Shown here: positions 3,001-33,520 of the stretch, one piece after another
Layout: every line of letters begins with the position of its first letter
Numbering within the stretch: position 1 is the stretch's first letter
Assembly (NCBI GenBank): GCA_913064955.1
Contig: CAJYBK010000006.1
Location: 1-33,678 of the forward strand
Direction of reading: 5' to 3'
DNA length: 33,678 nt
From: an uncultured Flavobacteriales bacterium
Lineage (GTDB): Bacteria; Bacteroidota; Bacteroidia; Flavobacteriales_D; Parvicellaceae
Made by a program: the position numbers and the translations under genes
The notes under the pieces: generated by a model
Database searches by the model: none
What the model saw: only the letters and a program-made list of their open reading frames with translations
Told to the model about the DNA's origin: nothing

Positions 3001-4980
3001 ATGAGAGTTCTATTTATTATTTTCCTTTGTTGCCACTTTGCTACTCCAGGTCAAAAACTGGACACATTAAATGGAAAGGTCTTGATTTTAGAGGAAGAAA
3101 CAAATTTTCCTATTTATACTATCGATTGGGAAAACACCAAAGTAGGTCATGCTGACATTAAGGTCAAAGAAAAACTCGGGTCTTACAAAGTAAAAACTGG
3201 AACCATAGGATTATTGAAAGGTTATCAATTAATTAGAAAGCAAGACAATTTGCTTTTATGGAAAAACGGTGCTAAAGAGATTCAGTTGCTGTTGATTAAG
3301 AAAAAGAAAGGCGAGTTTAGGTTGGTGTTTTCTGGTAATCAATTATACAATCATTGGGAGGTTTCATTTGACAGAGTGCAAGAAGAGGTCATTTATGGTG
3401 GCGGCATTCAGTTTTCTGAATATGACAGTTACAACAAAAAACTCATTAATCTATCACAAGAAAACGGTATAGGCAGAGGGGGAGGAAGTATTTCCAAATG
3501 GACGAAACTGGGCAAAGTGGTAGGAGAGAATTACGCTACTTATTGTCCATCTCCATATGTTTTAACTTCTGCCAATAGGTTTTTTAAATGGAATGAATAC
3601 GCTTATTCTGAAGTTGACTTTACTTCTGATAAAATCAAATTCCTAATAACAGATGAGTCCGTTGAGTTTGAACTGGGACATGGTGGTCCTGAACAACAAT
3701 TAGAAGTCGCTGTCGCCCCTTTCCCATATGAATTACCCAATTGGTCAACCGGAACCATTTTAGGTATACAGGGAGGTTCTAAATCTGTTTTAGAGAAAGT
3801 CTCTTCTGTTTTGGATGCAGGTGCAAAAATAGATGCTGTATGGATCCAGGATTGGGTAGGCAAACGACAAACCAAATATGGCAGTAGGTTAAATTGGACA
3901 TGGGAATTAGACACTTTACAATATCCTCAATTCGAAAATTTCAAAAACGAACTATTAGCGAAAGAAATCAAACTCATTGGCTATGTCAATCCATTTTTTG
4001 CGGAGCGTGGAAAATACATCACGGAAGGTCTTGAAAAAGGCTATTTTATCTATCAGCACAACACAGACACACCAAGACTGTTCGATTACGGGGGCATGAA
4101 AGGTTATATGTTAGATATCTATAACGAGGATGCTTTTGAATGGATGAAGGGCATCATCAAAACCAACTTAATAGACAATGGGTTTTCAGGTTGGATGGCA
4201 GATTTTGCAGAATGGTACCCAATGGGGAATGATCCAGAATTCGTTTTAGAAGATATAAAACTACACAATGAATACCCTGTGCTGTGGGCTAAACTAAACT
4301 ATGAGGTAATCAAAGAAAGCGGCAAAGAACTTTTCTTTTTTAACCGTTCTGGTGGAAGGGCTACTTCTCAATATTCCTCTATGATGTGGGCTGGTGACCA
4401 AATGGTAGATTACAGCGAAGAAGATGGGTTACTTTCTGTCTTTGATGCTTATTTATCTTCGTCACATTCTGGCCTACCAATGATTCACAGTGATGCAGGC
4501 GGTTATACTTCTGTGATAAAACCAATTATCAAAAATTATATTAGGAATTCATCACTACTTAAAGACTGGCTATTTTTAGAAGCCTGCACACCTGTTCTGA
4601 GAACACATGAAGGGTTGCTACCAGATGACAATTCTCAAGTCTATGATGAAGATATGAAAGACTTCTTTGCTAAAACATCAATCCTTCATGCTAAACTTCA
4701 GACTTACTTTGAAACATTAATAACGGCTAGGAATGAACATAATCAAGCCATTTATTTAGAATCCAAAGCGGTTCATGATTCTTTCAATAATCATTTGAAA
4801 AGTTTTGCTGTAGGACAAGACTTAGTTATCTTTTTTGTTCCAGAGAAACAGAAATATAATGTGCATTCAGACTGGACATTTCTATCCCCTGAAGGCAAGA
4901 TAAGTGTTAATCCTACTATAGGGATGAAAGTGCAAGTATTGATTAGAAAAGGAAGTGCCGTTTGTAAAATGTTAAATTAA
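3001..4980 (+). CDS. GH31 glycoside hydrolase, sulfoquinovosidase (YihQ)-like
   Basis: A 659-residue family GH31 alpha-glycosidase. The (beta/alpha)8 catalytic part spans about residues 245-580. The nucleophile is D401 in GWMADFAEW and the acid/base is D466 in MMWAGDQ. All five residues of the QQRWY set that marks sulfoquinovosidases within GH31 can be placed: Q257 (GIQGG), Q283 (QDWVG), R296 and W299 (SRLNW), and Y502 (GGYT). Their spacing matches E. coli YihQ (262, 288, 301, 304, 508) with a steady 5-6 residue offset. Such enzymes release sulfoquinovose from sulfoquinovosyl glycerol of plant and algal sulfolipid. A short hydrophobic N-terminus (residues 2-15, with CC at 10-11) suggests periplasmic export, perhaps as a lipoprotein. 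It lies in a tight + strand unit with unknown genes on both sides. No sulfoquinovose catabolic genes are in the window, so the substrate is not proven. Confidence 0.88.
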   Translation: MRVLFIIFLCCHFATPGQKLDTLNGKVLILEEETNFPIYTIDWENTKVGHADIKVKEKLGSYKVKTGTIGLLKGYQLIRKQDNLLLWKNGAKEIQLLLIKKKKGEFRLVFSGNQLYNHWEVSFDRVQEEVIYGGGIQFSEYDSYNKKLINLSQENGIGRGGGSISKWTKLGKVVGENYATYCPSPYVLTSANRFFKWNEYAYSEVDFTSDKIKFLITDESVEFELGHGGPEQQLEVAVAPFPYELPNWSTGTILGIQGGSKSVLEKVSSVLDAGAKIDAVWIQDWVGKRQTKYGSRLNWTWELDTLQYPQFENFKNELLAKEIKLIGYVNPFFAERGKYITEGLEKGYFIYQHNTDTPRLFDYGGMKGYMLDIYNEDAFEWMKGIIKTNLIDNGFSGWMADFAEWYPMGNDPEFVLEDIKLHNEYPVLWAKLNYEVIKESGKELFFFNRSGGRATSQYSSMMWAGDQMVDYSEEDGLLSVFDAYLSSSHSGLPMIHSDAGGYTSVIKPIIKNYIRNSSLLKDWLFLEACTPVLRTHEGLLPDDNSQVYDEDMKDFFAKTSILHAKLQTYFETLITARNEHNQAIYLESKAVHDSFNNHLKSFAVGQDLVIFFVPEKQKYNVHSDWTFLSPEGKISVNPTIGMKVQVLIRKGSAVCKMLN

Positions 4981-5003
4981 CTTTTGAAAACCTTCATTAA
5001 ATT

Positions 5004-5621
5004 ATGCAATCAATCATTTACGAAACTTCCAGACCGGCCAAAACATTTACTACAAACACATATTTGTTTTTTGGAATAGTTCTATGTAGTATTGGTATTT
5101 ACTACTTCACAACTCAATTAAATTGGAATAGACCTGAAGAGTATATACCACTAGGAGCAATCCTTACAATAGGACTTTACTTCCTGTTAGGCTACCAAGG
5201 CAACTGGCCGATTCCTAGTTCAAAAGGATACACAGAAAAATTGGAGTATTCTATAAATTCTGAAACTAACAACCTGGAATGTACTAGAACATTCCAAAAA
5301 CATCCTCCACATAGATTTATCTTATGTTCATTAGACGGTGTACAGTCTTTTGATTATACCGTTGAATCAAGGACCACAACAACGAGAACTGGAGGTGTGG
5401 AGCAAGGTTATGGAGCAGGACTAGGTGACACCTCTCCAACAGGTTTGGCATATAGATATCAAAACGTAACTAGTTCCAATCATACCAACTTTATTATTCT
5501 GTTACCTTCTAATAAAAAGGTTCAAGTCTCATCGTCTATTTCAAATATCTCCGACTTTGCTATGAAACTAAAAGAATTGCTTGCTATGCAAAACTCCCCA
5601 ACTTCTCCTCAATCACTTTAA
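5004..5621 (+). CDS. Small membrane protein of unknown function with two N-terminal helices
   Basis: A 205-residue protein not recognised as a named family. Two hydrophobic segments (about residues 20-38 and 47-65) form a hairpin. A soluble C-terminal part contains a glycine- and threonine-rich loop (about residues 122-145) between beta-like segments, a shape seen in bacterial PH-like membrane proteins; that resemblance is only structural intuition. It starts 23 bases after the GH31 gene and is likely the last gene of the same transcript. Its 3' end overlaps the 3' end of the convergent valS gene by 38 bases, with no obvious terminator between them. Confidence 0.6.
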   Translation: MQSIIYETSRPAKTFTTNTYLFFGIVLCSIGIYYFTTQLNWNRPEEYIPLGAILTIGLYFLLGYQGNWPIPSSKGYTEKLEYSINSETNNLECTRTFQKHPPHRFILCSLDGVQSFDYTVESRTTTTRTGGVEQGYGAGLGDTSPTGLAYRYQNVTSSNHTNFIILLPSNKKVQVSSSISNISDFAMKLKELLAMQNSPTSPQSL

Positions 5622-6096
5622 TTTTAGCTAAAGCTTCTGCTTGCTTGCGCTTCTCATTAGCCACCACCTGCTCAGGAGCACCAGCAACAAACTTCTCGTT
5701 GTTTAGTTTCTTCTCAGCAATGGCCAAAGATCCTTTGGTGTATTCCAACTCTGCTTTCAATTTTTCAATTTCTGCTTCTACATCAATATCTTCAGAGAAT
5801 GGAATGAAATACTCATTAGACTTCACAATGAATGAAAACGCATTGTCAACTTTTTCAGATGTATACTCCAAAGATGAGATGTTCCCGATTTTTTGAATTA
5901 CTGAGTCAAACGAAGTATCAGTTTCTTGATTCTTTTTGATTCTAAGTTCGATCTCTACCTTATTGGCAATGTTCTTCTCCTTACGGATATTTCTAATGTT
6001 AGAAATTACCTCATCAGCAAAATTAAACCCATCTAAAATTGATTGATCAACTTTCTGAACCTCTGGCCAAGTTGCCACAATGATGCAGTCTCTTTC
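5584..6096 (-). pseudogene. valS: Valyl-tRNA synthetase, C-terminal part in a shifted frame
   Basis: This frame encodes [13 protein letters not shown] and then the end of ValRS: the conserved ATWPE segment, a linker, and a heptad-rich coiled coil (about IEKLKAELEYTKGSLAIAEKKL... through KVIEEKLGSFA) that acts as the tRNA-binding arm in this family. It is directly continuous in content with the larger upstream fragment but out of frame with it. A GTG at 6078 could formally start a 164-residue peptide, but it sits mid-motif and has no convincing initiation context, so I read this as part of one gene. It is bounded upstream by an in-frame TAA (6099-6097). Confidence 0.85.
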
Positions 6097-8218
6097 TTAC
6101 CGTTCCTGTACTACGTCCCTTATCTCCCTCTGCGATGAAAGGAGTAAATGGGTGAATAATTCTTAAAACAGTTTCAAAAATCTCTAGTGTTTTAGCATAA
6201 GTAGTTGCATCAATTGGTTGCAAATAAGCAGGCTTAACAATCTCTAAATACCAAGAACAGAAATCATCCCAAACCAATTTGTACGTTGACATCAGTGCTT
6301 CAGAAATTCTGAACTGGTCGTAACTTGTATTGATTTCTGCTAAACGCTCATTCAATTTATTCTCAAACCATTCAATTCCCTTCTTAGCGTATTCTGGTTG
6401 GTCAAAATCTTTTGCTTCCCAAGATTTAACCAATCTGAAAGCATTCCAGATTTTATTCGTGAAGTTTCTTCCCTGTTCGCATTGAGAACTATCAAAAGGC
6501 AAATCATTTCCTGCTGGACTGCTCAACAACATTCCCACGCGTACACCATCAGCACCATATTTTTCAATAAGGCCAATTGGATCTGGACTATTCCCAAGAG
6601 ATTTAGACATTTTACGGCCTAATTTATCTCTTACAATACCTGTATAGTAGACATTCTTAAATGGTAATTCATTTTTATACTCATATCCAGCCATGATCAT
6701 TCTAGCCACCCAGAAGAACATAATCTCAGGAGCAGTTACCAAATCATTTGTTGGATAGTAGTAGTCTAATTCTTTACTGTCATTGTCTTTGTCAAAACCA
6801 CCAAAAACAGCCATTGGCCATAACCAAGAAGAGAACCAAGTATCCATTACGTCTGCATCTTGACGCAAGTCATGAACAGTCAATTTATCATTGCCTGTTG
6901 CTGCTTTTGCCATCTCCAATGCTTCAACTATAGTTTCTGCAACCACATAATCATTGATTCCTTTTCCATAGAAATACGCAGGTATTTGATGTCCCCACCA
7001 AAGTTGACGAGAAACACACCAGTCTTTGACATTCTCCATCCAGTGTTTGTAAGAATTCTTGAATTTTGGTGGGTGAAATGCAATGTCATCATTCATTACA
7101 TGTTCTAAAGCAGGTTTTGCTAATTCTTCCATTTTGCAAAACCATTGCAATGACAGTTTAGGCTCAATAACAGCATCTGTTCTTTCAGAAAAACCAATCT
7201 TATTGATGTGGTCTTCTGTCTTAACCATGTAGCCTTGCTCATCCAAATCTTTGGCGATTGCTTTTCTAACTTCAAATCTATCTTTCCCTTCGTATGGCCC
7301 TCCATGTGCATTTAACGTTCCATTGTCGTTGAAGATGTCAATGCTATCCAGATTGTGCTTGATGCCAATTTCATAATCATTAGGATCATGTGCAGGAGTG
7401 ATTTTCAAACACCCTGTTCCAAATTCAGGATCAACATATTCATCTAAAATGATAGGAATCGATCTATTGGCTATTGGCACTATAACACTTTTACCAATTA
7501 AATGCTTATATCTTGTATCATTGGGGTTAATACAAACAGCGCTATCTCCCATGATAGTTTCAGGACGAGTAGTTGCAATGGTTACCCATTCATCATCTGC
7601 ATCTTGGACTTTATATCTTACATAGTAAAGTTTTGAATTTACTTCTTTGTGGTTTACCTCTTCATCACTCAATGCCGTTAAAGCCTGAGGATCCCAATTA
7701 ACCATTCTTACTCCTCTATAAATGTTTCCTTTTTTGTGTAGGTCACAAAACACTTGAATTACTGCCTTGTAATATCCTTCGTCCATTGTAAAATGGGTAC
7801 GATTCCAATCACAAGAAGCTCCTAGTTTCTTTAGTTGTTCAAGAATAATACCACCATGCTTGTGTGTCCACTCCCAGCAATGTTCCAAAAACTCTTCACG
7901 AGAAAGATCCGCCTTGTCTATCCCTTCATTTTTCAGTTTAGTAACCACTTTTGCTTCTGTAGCAATGGAAGCATGATCTGTACCGGGAACCCAACAAGCG
8001 TTTTTACCCATCATACGTGCTCTTCTAACCAATACATCTTGAATTGTATTGTTAAGCATATGCCCCATGTGTAAGACACCAGTAACATTTGGTGGAGGAA
8101 TTACAATAGTGTAAGCCTCTCTATCGTCTGGCGTGGAATTAAAAAAACCTTCCTTCATCCAGTAGTCATACCATTTGCTTTCTGTCTTTGTAGACTCGTA
8201 TATTTTTGGGATTTCCAT
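6047..8218 (-). CDS. valS: Valyl-tRNA synthetase, N-terminal 723 residues of a disrupted gene
   Basis: Class Ia aminoacyl-tRNA synthetase that charges tRNA-Val. The HIGH motif is HMGH (residues 50-53), the KMSKS motif is KMSKS (536-540), and the editing domain lies between them (ATTRPETI near residue 215-222). The anticodon-binding domain runs to the family text HPFTPFIAE. Right after that, where the family has EEIW, the frame continues as [18 protein letters not shown] and stops at 6047. The genuine C-terminus follows in another frame (5584-6096). From start to final stop the locus is 2635 bases, or 3 x 878 + 1, so a single extra base would explain the broken frame of a normal 877-residue ValRS. 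A -7-like TATTTTTG (8248-8241) lies upstream of the start. Confidence 0.93.
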
Positions 8219-8240
8219 TTTGCTGTTTTGTTTGAGACTG

Positions 8241-8248
8241 CAAAAATA
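8241..8248 (-). promoter_or_regulatory. Probable -7 element of the valS promoter
   Basis: On the minus strand the sequence reads TATTTTTG, an exact match to the Bacteroidota -7 consensus TAnnTTTG, 22 bases before the valS ATG. No clear TTTG is present at the expected -33 distance, so confidence is limited. Confidence 0.35.
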
Positions 8249-8338
8249 GGAAAGACAAACGACTTAGCGACTTATGAACGATGGATTTTTCGACAACGGA
8301 TATTGAACAACCTTTTTACTTAATTGAAAATTTAGAAA

Positions 8339-8370
8339 TTGACCTATTTGTACTGAAAATAGTACTTTTA
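8339..8370 (+). promoter_or_regulatory. Possible promoter of the DUF2797 gene with an overlapping dyad
   Basis: TTG (8339-8341) and TACTTTTA (8363-8370) are separated by 21 bases, close to the Bacteroidota promoter form. A 5-bp perfect inverted repeat, GTACT-N6-AGTAC (8350-8365), covers the spacer and the start of the -7 element, which is a position a repressor could use. Confidence 0.35.
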
Positions 8371-8383
8371 CAAAAACAATCGG

Positions 8384-9202
8384 ATGAGCATGCACCTAGG
8401 AAATATCAGAAAAATGAAGACGGCCCTTGAAGGGGAAGAAGTACAATACGGAATGGTACTTAATAACAACCTAGAAAAAGGAGAGGTTATTTCGCTAAAT
8501 GAGCATGTGGGAGAAAAAATCTACATTGAATTTCAGCATCAGATAAACTGTGTAGTAACAGGAGAAAAAATCAAAAAGGCATTTGGAGAAGGAATGAGTT
8601 ATGACGCTTTTATGAACTCCCCTATGGCAGTGGAAAGTATCATTAGGCCAGAATTGAGCAGAATTCATGAAGGAATAGCCTTGAGAGATGAAGAATGGGA
8701 ACGAAGAAATCACTTGCAACCTCATTATGTCTATTTATCTAAAACTTCTGGAGTAAAAGTGGGTGTAACTAGGTCTACTCAAGTTCCATTCAGGTGGATA
8801 GATCAAGGCGCAGTAGAGGCAATGATTATTGCAGAGACACCATACCGTCAGGCTGCAGGCTTAATTGAAGTTGCGCTAAAGGATTACGTAGCAGATAAAA
8901 CCAGTTGGCAAAAAATGTTGAAGAATGATTTAAATGACCTTTCGCTGGACGAAGCTCGAGACTATCTATTGGATTACGTGCCTGAAGAATTGGAAGAATT
9001 TGTAAAATATCGTGAGCCTATTCAACATCTTCACTTTCCTGTATTGAATTATCCAGAAAAGGTAAAGTCCATGAAACTAGACAGCACTCCTATTATAGAA
9101 AAGAAACTAACCGGTATCAAAGGACAGTATTTAATGTTTGAAGATGGGACAGTAATGAATATTAGAAGTCATTCGGGGTATTTGGTGAAAGTTGATTTTT
9201 AG
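8384..9202 (+). CDS. DUF2797 family protein lacking the usual zinc cysteines
   Basis: A 272-residue protein with the DUF2797 signature: HYVYLSKTSGVKVGVTR (about residues 114-130), then STQVPFRWIDQGA and PYRQAAGLIEVALKDYVADKTSW. The VYL...KVGVTR core resembles the GIY-YIG arrangement, so a nuclease-like fold is possible, but no activity is established. Other family members carry CxxC pairs in the N-terminal half; here C56 is the only cysteine in the whole protein, so the zinc site appears lost. ATG at 8384 is taken as the start; M3 and M11 are alternatives. It is transcribed alone, divergent from valS. Confidence 0.85.
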   Translation: MSMHLGNIRKMKTALEGEEVQYGMVLNNNLEKGEVISLNEHVGEKIYIEFQHQINCVVTGEKIKKAFGEGMSYDAFMNSPMAVESIIRPELSRIHEGIALRDEEWERRNHLQPHYVYLSKTSGVKVGVTRSTQVPFRWIDQGAVEAMIIAETPYRQAAGLIEVALKDYVADKTSWQKMLKNDLNDLSLDEARDYLLDYVPEELEEFVKYREPIQHLHFPVLNYPEKVKSMKLDSTPIIEKKLTGIKGQYLMFEDGTVMNIRSHSGYLVKVDF

Positions 9203-9248
9203 ATACTAGACAATAGAACGCTACGCTCCTAGACGCTAGATACTAGAC
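9200..9248. repeat. Short direct repeat in an intergenic TAGAC-rich tract
   Basis: TAGATACTAGAC occurs at 9200-9211 and again at 9237-9248, separated by 25 bases that themselves hold CGCT and TAGAC words. A further TAGAC lies near 9292. The first copy overlaps the stop codon region of the DUF2797 gene. No gene is seen in 9203-9335. It may be a remnant of a dispersed low-complexity repeat family. Confidence 0.5.
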
Positions 9249-9335
9249 TGGCTTCGCTAATAGATTTGGTCAATGGATGATGGTAGACTGCTCTAGTTGA
9301 GTATTGGTTATAATGACCATAGATGCGAGTAGCTA

Positions 9336-30647: not shown

Positions 30648-31121
30648 TTAAAGCGTTATCTGACGTTTAATGCTCTCCGTAAGGCAAATTAATGTCTCTG
30701 TTCTCATAACGCTCTGTATCGACTGTATTTTATGATTTAGCACATCATACAAGTGCTGAGTATTCTTACAATGAATTTTTAAAAAGATACTATAGGCTCC
30801 CGTTGTAAAATATGCCTCCGTTACTTCCGGAACTTTTTTAAGGTTTTCCACTACCTCTTCGTAATCCGAGCCATGTTCTAAATGCACTCCTAAATAGGCG
30901 CTTAAATCATATCCTAGTTTCTGTGGATCCAAAAGAACAGTTGTACCTTGCACTACTCCCAGCTCTTCCAATTTTTTCATTCTAACATGAATTGTACCTG
31001 CAGAAACTATTAATTCTTTAGCTATTTCCGTATACGGAGTTTTAGCGTCTTTTGTCAAAATACTTAAAATCGACTTATCTAAATCATCAATTTCGTAATG
31101 GACGTCATATTTTTGATACAT
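30648..31121 (-). CDS. Lrp/AsnC family transcriptional regulator
   Basis: A 157-residue regulator. The N-terminal winged helix (about residues 10-60) reads IDDLDKSILSILTKDAKTPYTEIAKEL, divided over three helices, then GTIHVRMKKLEELGVV. The C-terminal RAM/AsnC ligand domain (about 75-150) shows GVHLEHGSDYEEVV, VTEAYFTTGAYSIFLKI and LICLTESIKRQ. These proteins assemble into octamers or higher forms and respond to amino acids. A perfect AT-rich dyad upstream (31152-31177) suggests autoregulation. The gene is single on the minus strand and ends against the hppA terminator. Confidence 0.95.
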   Translation of the reverse strand: MYQKYDVHYEIDDLDKSILSILTKDAKTPYTEIAKELIVSAGTIHVRMKKLEELGVVQGTTVLLDPQKLGYDLSAYLGVHLEHGSDYEEVVENLKKVPEVTEAYFTTGAYSIFLKIHCKNTQHLYDVLNHKIQSIQSVMRTETLICLTESIKRQITL

Positions 31122-31232: not shown

Positions 31233-31317
31233 TAGAAAAAAGAGGTAGTAGTCTTTTGTAGTTTTGAATTGAGGTTTTATTTGGGAGGGGTCCCTTATAA
31301 AACCTCAATTTGTTTTT
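31233..31317 (+). ncRNA. Candidate small RNA (about 85 nt) or leader of the nuclease gene
   Basis: A consensus promoter is followed, about 40 bases later, by a perfect 14-bp stem (AATTGAGGTTTTAT, 31267-31280, with 31297-31310). An inner stem GGGA/TCCC lies in its loop, and TGTTTTT follows. The space between is purine-rich and single-stranded by eye (31233-31266). No open frame of useful length starts inside. It ends 92 bases before the nuclease ATG, so it may be a free-standing sRNA or an attenuated leader. Ends are inferred from the promoter and terminator. Confidence 0.55.
31267..31317 (+). terminator. Intrinsic terminator of the candidate small RNA
   Basis: A 14-bp perfect stem with an internal GGGA/TCCC stem-loop is followed on the + strand by TGTTTTT. 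Confidence 0.7.
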
Positions 31318-31408
31318 ACAATATATTATTCTATTTGCCATTTTACTTTGATGTCAATTAAATGGAAATGGAAAGGGTTATTTCAAAAGTTTTTACCTTT
31401 ACAGTAGA

Positions 31409-31849
31409 ATGATAAAAAGACCTTCCAAAGAAACTTCATTGGCTACAGTAAACCCTAAACTGGCTTCTGAATGGCACAATACATTAAACGGAAATCTGAC
31501 ACCTCTTGATGTAACTGCAGGTTCCAACAAAAAGGTATGGTGGAAATGTGACAAGGGAGAAGATCATGAGTGGGAGGCCAGTATTAAATCAAGAAATGCG
31601 GGCAGGGGTTGTTCAATCTGCAGTGGTAAAAAGGTGGTCAAGTCTGTAAGTTTAGGTTTCTTAAACCCTAAACTTACAGAAGAGTGGCACCCTTCCCTAA
31701 ACGGAGTGTTAACTCCAAACGATGTATCTATAGGCTCAAATAAAAAAGTGTGGTGGAAATGTAAAGCAGGTGAAGATCATGAGTGGGAGGCTAGCGTAGA
31801 CAAGAGAAATAACGGCCAAGGTTGTACAATTTGTGCAGGAAAAAAGTAG
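31409..31849 (+). CDS. Zinc-ribbon repeat nuclease, N-terminal part (repeats 1-2), zero frame
   Basis: A 146-residue frame holding the first two of seven repeats of about 70 residues. Each has the pattern L-x-EWH-x-x-LNG-x-LTP-x-DV, then WWKC, EDHEWEA, and GC-x-IC, as in the DUF4379 probable zinc-ribbon (treble clef) family. The metal ligands would be the C of WWKC, the H of EDH, and the C-x2-C pair. The frame ends at TAG (31847-31849) directly after A_AAA_AAG; a -1 shift there continues repeat 2 into repeat 3 without loss of a residue. Alone it would be a binding module without the nuclease. Confidence 0.85.
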   Translation: MIKRPSKETSLATVNPKLASEWHNTLNGNLTPLDVTAGSNKKVWWKCDKGEDHEWEASIKSRNAGRGCSICSGKKVVKSVSLGFLNPKLTEEWHPSLNGVLTPNDVSIGSNKKVWWKCKAGEDHEWEASVDKRNNGQGCTICAGKK

Positions 31850-32910
31850 TACAGTCTAATTCCTTGGCTGCTTTAAGCCCTATATTAACAGAGCAATGGC
31901 ACCCTACTTTAAATGGAAAAATATCACCAAAAGATGTTACAATAGGGAGCAGTTCTAGAAAGTATTGGTGGCAGTGCCCTGTTGCGGAAGACCATATTTA
32001 TGAAGCCAAAGTTAATAATAGAAAGCAAGGAGAAGGATGTCCGATTTGTGCAGGTAAAAAAGTAGTGCAATCTAACTCTTTGGCTACTATAAACCCTGAA
32101 TTAGCCAAAGAATGGCACCCAACATTAAATGGTAACATAACCTCTTCAGACATAACAGTAAGTGCAAACAAAAAGATATGGTGGAAGTGTGACAAAGGAG
32201 AAGATCACATATTGAAATCACTTGTCAGTTCTAGAACCGTTGGAAGAGGCTGTCCAATTTGCAGAGGACTAAAAGTAGTTGAGTCTAATTGTCTAAGAAC
32301 TGTTAGCCCTAAATTATCATTAGAGTGGCATTCAACTCTTAATGGCGATTTGACTCCAGATGATGTTTCTGCAGGAAGTAAGAAAAGGGTTTGGTGGCAA
32401 TGTTCTAAAGGTGAAGATCATATTTGGGCTGCGCCAATTTCAGAGAGGTCAAGCGGTCATGGTTGTGCTATATGCAGGGGGTTGAAGGTTGTTAAGTCTA
32501 ATAGTCTTGCTTACTTACAGCCTGAATTAACAAAGGAATGGCACCCTTCTCTTAATGGAAAACTGACTCCTTATGATGTTACATTAAAAAGTCATAAGCA
32601 GGTATGGTGGAAGTGTGACAAAGGAGATGATCATGAATGGAAAGCATCCATTGACAGCAGAACTAGGGGTAATGGCTGCCCTATATGTTCAGGAAGAAAA
32701 GTTGTGAAATCCAATAGTTTAGCAACTCTTAACCCTAAATTAGCAAGTGAATGGCACCCCACACTTAATGGGAATATTACACCTAACACAGTTGCTCTTA
32801 GCAGCAGTACTAAAAAATACTGGTGGCAGTGTTCCAAAGGTAAAGACCATGTTTGGTTAGCAAGTCCCAATAGTAGATCTTCAAAAGAAAGCGGGTGCCC
32901 ATATTGTACC
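31433..32910 (+). repeat. Seven tandem zinc-ribbon coding repeats (about 210 bases each)
   Basis: The repeats are clear at protein level: seven EWH or QWH motifs, seven WWxC motifs and seven GC-x2-C motifs, spaced about 70 residues. Codons differ freely between copies, so the duplication is old and the protein pattern is under selection. Repeats 3, 4 and 5 vary most in the EDHxxxA segment. Confidence 0.85.
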
Positions 32911-33411
32911 CTGACCCCTCAATCTAGACAAGAGTTAACAATCACTTTTGAATTGGCATCAATATTTAAAGACATAGACCCTAAAGGTCATAAAATTAGA
33001 GTAAAAGGAACTGTTCACTCAATTGATATTTATATTCCACTTCTAAACATGGGAATAGAGTTTGATGGACACTATTGGCACAAGGGCAAAAGAGATTTTG
33101 ACAAGGTAAAAACACTAAAACTAGAACAAGCGGGACTAAATATAATTAGGGTTAGGGAGGAGCCACTTAAAAAGATATTTGGATCTGATATAATAAGTAA
33201 GAAACCATATAATGGCAAAGAAATAACTAACAACCTGCTGGAATACTTTAAAACTGTACATGACTTTGATAAAGGCACGCTTAACAGGATAAACAAGTAC
33301 CTGTCAAAAGAAGAGTTACAAAACCAAAAAGGTTTAGAAAAATATATTGATTTCATTCTTGAAGAAAAAGCAAAAAAAAGGAGTGTTGAAACTATTGAGC
33401 TAACGTCTTAA
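31822..33411 (+). CDS. Zinc-ribbon repeat nuclease, C-terminal part (repeats 3-7 plus Vsr-like endonuclease)
   Basis: Real content begins near 31846, as the ATG at 31822 lies inside the repeat-2 coding region in the other frame. Five more zinc-ribbon repeats run to about 32910. The last, ending SGCPYC, leads into a nuclease domain (about 32917-33200) with SIDIYIP, GIEFDGHYWHKGKRDFDK and LNIIRVREEPLK. This is the layout of Vsr/PD-(D/E)XK-like enzymes; in the fused 667-residue product the likely catalytic residues are D540, E551, D553 and H558. A helical lysine-rich tail follows. The joined protein would be a DNA- or RNA-binding tandem array with a terminal cutter. The target is unknown. Confidence 0.88.
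   Translation: MYNLCRKKVVQSNSLAALSPILTEQWHPTLNGKISPKDVTIGSSSRKYWWQCPVAEDHIYEAKVNNRKQGEGCPICAGKKVVQSNSLATINPELAKEWHPTLNGNITSSDITVSANKKIWWKCDKGEDHILKSLVSSRTVGRGCPICRGLKVVESNCLRTVSPKLSLEWHSTLNGDLTPDDVSAGSKKRVWWQCSKGEDHIWAAPISERSSGHGCAICRGLKVVKSNSLAYLQPELTKEWHPSLNGKLTPYDVTLKSHKQVWWKCDKGDDHEWKASIDSRTRGNGCPICSGRKVVKSNSLATLNPKLASEWHPTLNGNITPNTVALSSSTKKYWWQCSKGKDHVWLASPNSRSSKESGCPYCTLTPQSRQELTITFELASIFKDIDPKGHKIRVKGTVHSIDIYIPLLNMGIEFDGHYWHKGKRDFDKVKTLKLEQAGLNIIRVREEPLKKIFGSDIISKKPYNGKEITNNLLEYFKTVHDFDKGTLNRINKYLSKEELQNQKGLEKYIDFILEEKAKKRSVETIELTS
31840..31849 (+). other. A_AAA_AAG slippery heptamer followed by an in-frame TAG
   Basis: In the zero frame the codons are GGA AAA AAG TAG. The heptamer 31840-31846 has the exact X_XXY_YYZ phase of the dnaX-type -1 frameshift site, and slipping by -1 gives GTA GTA CAG, which continues the conserved repeat linker KKVVQSNSL. 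The alternative is loss of one A from a homopolymer. Confidence 0.6.
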
Positions 33412-33417
33412 AACAAA

Positions 33418-33445
33418 AAAAGGTAGTCCAGATGAACTACCTTTT
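33418..33445. terminator. Bidirectional terminator between nuclease gene and tRNA
   Basis: AAAAGGTAGT (33418-33427) pairs with ACTACCTTTT (33436-33445) around an eight-base loop. On the minus strand a run of seven T and then GTTT follows, so it is strongest for the tRNA. It also sits seven bases after the nuclease stop codon. Confidence 0.8.
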
Positions 33446-33446
33446 G

Positions 33447-33520
33447 TGGGCCCTCACGGGCTCGAACCGTGGACCCCCTGATTATGAGTCAGGTGCTCTA
33501 ACCAGCTGAGCTAAGGGCCC
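33447..33520 (-). tRNA. tRNA with CAU anticodon (tRNA-Ile2 or elongator tRNA-Met)
   Basis: The minus strand folds as a complete cloverleaf of 74 bases: acceptor GGGCCCT with AGGGCCC, D-arm TAGCTCAGCTGGTTAGAGCA, anticodon loop CTCATAA, T-arm with GGTTCGAGC, and discriminator A. CCA is not encoded. The acceptor and anticodon stem resemble E. coli tRNA-Ile2, whose C34 is changed to lysidine by TilS, more than the elongator tRNA-Met; I favour Ile2 but cannot exclude Met. Confidence 0.9.

Follow-up and report, generated by a model that had tools for sequence, protein, structure and literature searches.

The window, by which we mean the whole 33,678-nucleotide stretch of DNA analysed here, carries near its right-hand end a row of seven DUF4379 repeats followed by a nuclease domain. 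As the original prediction had it, this locus lies between an Lrp/AsnC gene and a tRNA-Met gene, both on the opposite strand. Its features are:

30648-31121, minus strand: Lrp/AsnC regulator, a flanking host gene outside the unit
31409-31849, plus strand: ORF A, 146 aa, with the start, DUF4379 repeats 1 and 2, and the stop codon TAG at 31847-31849
31436-31648, plus strand: DUF4379 repeat 1
31649-31860, plus strand: DUF4379 repeat 2, with the frame break inside its C-terminal linker
31840-31849, plus strand: frame break, AAAAAAG-TAG; a run of A6, which is A7 in the relative G009, with the -1 frame resuming as GTA GTA CAG (VVQ)
31846-33411, plus strand: ORF B, in the -1 frame, with the end of the repeat 2 linker, repeats 3-7, the nuclease, and the stop codon TAA at 33409-33411
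31822-33411, plus strand: nominal extent of ORF B, counted from a TTG
31861-32076, plus strand: DUF4379 repeat 3
32077-32289, plus strand: DUF4379 repeat 4
32290-32502, plus strand: DUF4379 repeat 5
32503-32715, plus strand: DUF4379 repeat 6
32716-32928, plus strand: DUF4379 repeat 7
32908-33408, plus strand: PD-(D/E)XK/Vsr-like nuclease domain, with invariant E (32932), D (33025), E (33058), D (33064), H (33079) and K (33109)
33418-33445, minus strand: Rho-independent terminator of the tRNA-Met, between the stop codon of the gene and the 3′ end of the tRNA
33446-33520, minus strand: tRNA-Met(CAT), with its 3′ end toward the gene

The region 31409-33411 had been described as one gene for a single fused protein of 667 residues. 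This is ruled out by the TAG that ends ORF A, the remainder being open in the -1 frame to 33411, and there are instead two ORFs in different frames. A one-base step back after the AAG at 31844-31846 reproduces the 667 residues exactly, and the predicted protein is evidently a read-through of the frame break. The same step restores the usual junction between repeats (CAGKK-VVQSNSLAAL). The run at 31840-31845 is A6 in the window, whereas at this junction the homologue in G009, a genome of the same family, has A7 (TGTGCAGGAAAAAAAGTTGTACAA) and is in frame; the Polaribacter homologue L016, about 53% identical, encodes seven repeats and the nuclease in a single uninterrupted frame of 665 codons. 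From these comparisons, loss of one A, through mutation or assembly error, is the simplest reading of the break. Most loci are from metagenome-assembled genomes, in which single-base indels may be errors. The frameshift is probably recent, and because of it the window copy is unlikely to yield an active full-length protein. ORF B alone, with five repeats and the nuclease, resembles the natural five-repeat homologues L017 and L019, and may thus retain some function by re-initiation. Outside the unit, a palindromic stretch at 31235-31318 (AATTGAGGTTTTATTTGGGAGGGGTCCCTTATAAAACCTCAATT core) lies upstream of lrp and is 80% conserved in the same-genus genome G001, likewise upstream of lrp; it is a possible regulatory element.

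The repeats themselves are just as they had been read, seven tandem units of 71-72 residues, each with WW[KQ]C...DH...CxxC. All seven score above the gathering threshold of the Pfam family PF14311, DUF4379 (65-86 bits, compared with 24.5; E 6e-24 to 2e-17), and it is only the term "zinc ribbon" that has to be given up, since Pfam now describes the family as a probable treble clef zinc finger. The putative zinc-ligand pattern, C-x5-H...CxxC, is present in every repeat of the window and is nearly invariant in 20 aligned two-repeat segments, and a two-repeat structural model is confident within the units (pLDDT 89). By both sequence and fold, the sole solved relatives of the repeat are two kinetoplastid mitoribosome or ribosome-assembly proteins, mt-SAF33 and mS66.

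A Vsr-like nuclease had been proposed for the C-terminal domain, with structure prediction as a check, and both the residues and the fold agree with this. Across the nuclease domains of 18 homologues, E9, D40, E51, D53, H58, K68 and R81 are invariant, the pattern E, D, ExD, H and K among them, and the predicted structure is a confident alpha/beta model of a nuclease (pLDDT 90). With its conserved acidic residues and histidine in the right predicted fold, the domain can be placed among the PD-(D/E)XK/Vsr-like nucleases. Of the 18 members, all match MTES_1575, ten match DUF559 and four weakly match Vsr, although the window's own domain scores under the curated cut-offs. A profile of the domain has one significant match in the PDB, 3r3p, entitled 'Mobile intron protein' (the I-Bth0305I domain; E 4e-4); at the positions of D53 and H58, however, this alignment shows N and A in 3r3p. 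The nuclease is thus related to the EDxHD family of I-Bth0305I, but since the catalytic set is not identical we do not file it there as a member. Foldseek searches with the nuclease model alone gave weak matches to R.BspD6I2, Bax1 and PvuRts1I (best E 9e-3) and were less informative than the profile.

Homologues are rare and patchily distributed. Matches to the nuclease profile, some of them weak, came from 3 of 395 genomes in the class and from 11 of 399 in the order. The profile is commoner in two groups of Clostridia (27 of 397 and 27 of 394 genomes), and the genes are most frequent in genera of the Oscillospirales; relatives of the Polaribacter protein occur in 81 plasmid records. In 80 loci with both repeats and nuclease, the number of repeats ranges from 1 to 18 and is mostly 6-9, and in 64 of them the nuclease is embedded among the repeats, while in 13 it is C-terminal. 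A Margulisbacteria homologue of 1089 aa (L018:2317-5586), in one frame, has ten repeats before the nuclease domain and three after it. Near the intact Polaribacter homologue, one gene removed from it, lies a second, distant member of the nuclease-domain family (L016:8864-10027, minus strand, 387 aa; E 6e-10), in which no DUF4379 repeats were detected and for which there was no Pfam match.

The association with tRNA genes, suggested originally by the window alone, is significant across the family. A tRNA lies within 500 bp of 13 of the 65 homologues flanked by 600 bp or more on both sides (window excluded), compared with 7 of 421 random ORFs, a rate about twelve times higher (odds ratio 15, p = 5e-8, uncorrected for relatedness); these controls comprised the ORFs of 200 aa or more in forty 20-kb stretches chosen at random from genomes of the same searches, mainly from larger contigs of Clostridia genomes. 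For loci of the two Clostridia searches only, 9 of 43 are near a tRNA (p = 1.6e-6, also uncorrected for relatedness). In all 15 adjacent homologues, two of them with short flanks, and in the window as well, it is the 3′ end of the tRNA that faces the gene, compared with 4 of 7 controls. The tRNA's own terminator, a hairpin followed by a T-run, usually stands between tRNA and gene in the examples inspected; that of the window is native to the tRNA, because the same-genus genome G002 has the same tRNA-Met terminator without the gene. The adjoining tRNAs are those for Ser, Pro, Leu, Tyr, Thr and Met, and 80% of homologues are not beside a tRNA. In a partly resolved tree of the nuclease domain, closely related copies are found at different tRNA isotypes or at no tRNA, and because related genes sit at different isotypes the tRNA-side insertions are largely independent.

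Why should these genes lie on the 3′ side of tRNAs? They could be passengers of integrative elements whose attachment sites are tRNA 3′ ends, so that integrases and not the nuclease cause the link. The 3′-side bias is indeed typical of such sites, duplications of a tRNA end, which are typical of integrase islands, are found at two loci (L133 and L183), and a recombinase is encoded nearby in 8 of 64 loci away from tRNAs. At the tRNA-adjacent loci, however, no tyrosine or serine recombinase was found in the fetched stretch of any of the 16, the attachment-site duplicate is absent from nearly all, in most of them nothing but the tRNA terminator plus a short spacer lies between tRNA and gene, and homology between copies stops at the ORF. 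We therefore regard carriage by integrative elements as unlikely. For the window itself, a duplication of the tRNA-Met end around the gene was sought as an attachment-site signature, and none was found. At L133 (G943:C23:542000-556000) two nuclease genes stand in tandem at 4394-9301 next to tRNA-Leu(caa), and on their far side 22 bp of the tRNA 3′ end are repeated, which gives the impression that this pair is carried in an integrative island.

Occupied and gene-free versions of one tRNA site can be compared at the tRNA-Leu(cag)/thiC locus. The gene is present there in G1342, whereas it is missing from G1586 and G1584, which share the tRNA-thiC side; G1583 keeps the gene after tRNA-Leu(cag), but thiC is elsewhere, and homology ends at the stop codon of the gene. 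Gene-free relatives at the same tRNA are thus seen, yet there is no clean empty site at the level of strains, and the boundaries of empty sites are blurred by ordinary divergence of the spacers. For the window, no clean gene-free allele was present in the same-genus genomes compared, in which synteny differs.

In two pairs of near-identical copies, at different sites in different genomes, homology is confined to the ORF. L022 adjoins tRNA-Ser and L027 tRNA-Pro; the two are 85% identical between, approximately, the start and stop codons, and their flanks are unrelated. L024 and L157 are 97% identical over their shared 1.67 kb; in both pairs homology ends at the ORF start and at or before the ORF end. 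Some closely related units also keep a short, promoter-like stretch upstream. L173 and L174 (from G1512 and G1488) have about 4.9 kb in common at 90.5% identity, nuclease gene and flanks included, and unlike the ORF-limited pairs this copy is apparently either vertically inherited or co-transferred with its surroundings.

The genes are also solitary, as had been supposed. Among 639 neighbours of the 80 loci there is no shared partner gene, none occurring in more than four loci, and the survey of homologous neighbourhoods that had been proposed revealed ordinary host genes with scattered matches to defence families. Small genes do recur in pairs of loci. In several Oscillospirales loci such genes directly follow the nuclease gene (L158:4562-4996, L161:312-743, L024:8123-8488, L030:7908-8273), being DUF2513 in two and an identical-type 121-aa protein in two others; they vary by copy, like swapped passengers.

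This context bears on the suggestion that the protein is an anti-phage defence nuclease, its array recognising invading or modified DNA and its Vsr-like domain cutting it. Such a role would suit the accessory, patchy distribution, a few neighbours do match defence families, and the relatives of the nuclease include the MTES_1575, DUF559 and PvuRts1I-like restriction families. Against it stand the absence of any methylase or other constant partner in the 80 loci, the occurrence of the same architecture in phages, and the many frame-broken copies; no PADLOC model matches the protein, and defence matches among the 130 immediate neighbours are scattered. The same three results, the PADLOC null, the lack of a constant partner and the scatter among neighbours, led us to reject a defence island. 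The defence role put forward originally is thus not upheld, and we give it little credence. A modified base could still be what the array reads, the findings speaking neither for nor against this part of the proposal.

Broken reading frames are not confined to the window. In ten loci the coding sequence is divided among two or more ORFs, and the closest same-family homologue (G009:C5, L039:4964-6721, minus strand) has three separate single-base frame shifts, elsewhere than that of the window. A programmed break, in which -1 slippage on A AAA AAG yields both a two-repeat protein and the full protein, has in its favour that this heptamer is in the right phase and immediately before the stop, A AAA AAG followed by a stop being a textbook -1 slip site. 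The RNA downstream of the break, however, folds no better than shuffled sequences (z +1.25), and for this reason we rate programmed shifting as very improbable; in addition, the relative G009 has A7 in frame at this junction, the L016 homologue needs no shift, and the breaks in other homologues are at unrelated places. The frame break in the window is in keeping with a 2026 preprint (PMC13405050), which reports debilitating mutations in the majority of the homing endonuclease genes that exist today in another family.

The least credible alternative is an RNA-directed enzyme whose repeats bind a structured RNA such as tRNA for the nuclease to trim or cut, for although mt-SAF33 and mS66 sit on RNA-protein particles and some of the genes adjoin tRNAs, the nuclease belongs to a DNA-cutting superfamily, phage and plasmid relatives have no nearby tRNAs in the loci checked, and the majority of homologues are away from tRNAs.

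We conclude that the window gene is probably a free-standing, homing-endonuclease-like mobile gene, a selfish element of one ORF, because it belongs to a family that is solitary, patchy and decaying, that moves as an ORF-limited unit, that joins a zinc array to a Vsr-like cutter, and whose phage relatives are published as homing endonucleases. The row of treble-clef zinc modules would bind a long DNA target, DNA rather than RNA, and the PD-(D/E)XK/Vsr-like domain would cut it, after which the host would repair the cut against the gene-bearing copy and so install the gene. That modular zinc-binding repeats position a Vsr-fold cutter on a long target, as first proposed, is likely, the phage relatives being read in this way (PMC12350094) and the profile matching I-Bth0305I. 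Relatives would repeatedly have landed just past the terminator on the 3′ side of tRNAs, where the cost to the host may be low and the neighbouring sequence is presumably conserved between species. The window copy, with one A lost in repeat 2, would then stand at an early step in a cycle of invasion, decay and loss, an assembly error being the less likely cause.

The tRNA preference suggests either that the target lies in or beside tRNA genes, or that insertions survive at harmless sites. Classical homing to one cognate site appears insufficient, because related copies sit at different tRNAs, and it is a guess that the array recognises some sequence that tRNA genes have in common, such as the T-arm. 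More tentatively, these genes could represent widespread, recombinase-free, one-ORF mobile genes of cellular bacteria that land anew next to the 3′ ends of many different tRNA genes, their treble-clef arrays reading a tRNA-shared sequence; such tRNA-homing nucleases would have arrays of up to about 18 modules, often on both sides of the cutter. If the homing interpretation is correct, many bacterial 'zinc-ribbon domain-containing proteins' without an assigned function are homing-type selfish genes with the 3′ side of tRNAs as preferred landing place, and small one-gene insertions at such places are explained without integrases. The arrays being strings of near-identical modules, intact relatives would suit a test of modular DNA reading by DUF4379.

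Several known systems share part of this architecture. The Vsr, DUF559 and REase_MTES_1575 families resemble the nuclease in being those matched by the 18 members, the window's sub-threshold scores setting it apart, and the Vsr mismatch endonuclease is not known to have a zinc-finger array. The kinetoplastid proteins mt-SAF33 and mS66 provide the only solved folds of the repeat (9hny_Fd, rmsd 1.4 over 68 columns), but the solved chains so named have no nuclease domain and are part of RNA-protein particles. SegB of phage T4, a GIY-YIG enzyme, is free-standing like the present genes. Judging by a title cited in PMC10448857, it is also a nuclease linked to the inheritance of a tRNA gene region, although the genes described here are of the zinc-array, Vsr-like type and reside in bacterial chromosomes. 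In I-Bth0305I a multi-domain DNA-binding region is set on a Vsr-like cutter (PMC3943268), an arrangement to which the present one can be likened; its nuclease domain is the nearest solved one by profile, but the similarity is weak.

Finally, the closest counterparts are in phages. In phage homing endonucleases of the T5orf172 type, DNA is usually bound by CapR-type zinc fingers and related DUF domains (2023, PMC10448857). The PHROG families matched here are annotated 'HNH endonuclease' (E 2e-31), 'endonuclease' (2e-18) and 'homing endonuclease' (4e-10). Phage relatives found in this analysis include a gut-phage protein with eight repeats and a Sporosarcina phage gene located between helicase and primase; a scan of viral contigs with the full protein gave one weak match, to the nuclease only. 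The architecture is already known, and the tRNA-3′-side preference seems to be new: a literature search whose scope left out most subscription journals returned no paper on tRNA-linked free-standing nucleases of this type. A new outgroup of phage homing endonucleases, located in group II introns, was described in 2025 (PMC12350094); its members combine 3-5 modules related to CapR, DUF4379 and DUF723 with a domain that is a distant relative of EDxHD/Vsr, and they have thousands of relatives that lack annotation. The window gene is intergenic and is not carried by an intron, an Rfam search having found no intron in the window or in nine homologous loci. The two groups thus share a row of zinc modules of about 60-70 residues followed by a C-terminal Vsr-like nuclease, and the same PHROG families, but where the phage enzymes are intron-encoded with 3-5 modules, the window gene is free-standing and chromosomal, with seven modules, a tRNA beside it and a broken frame.
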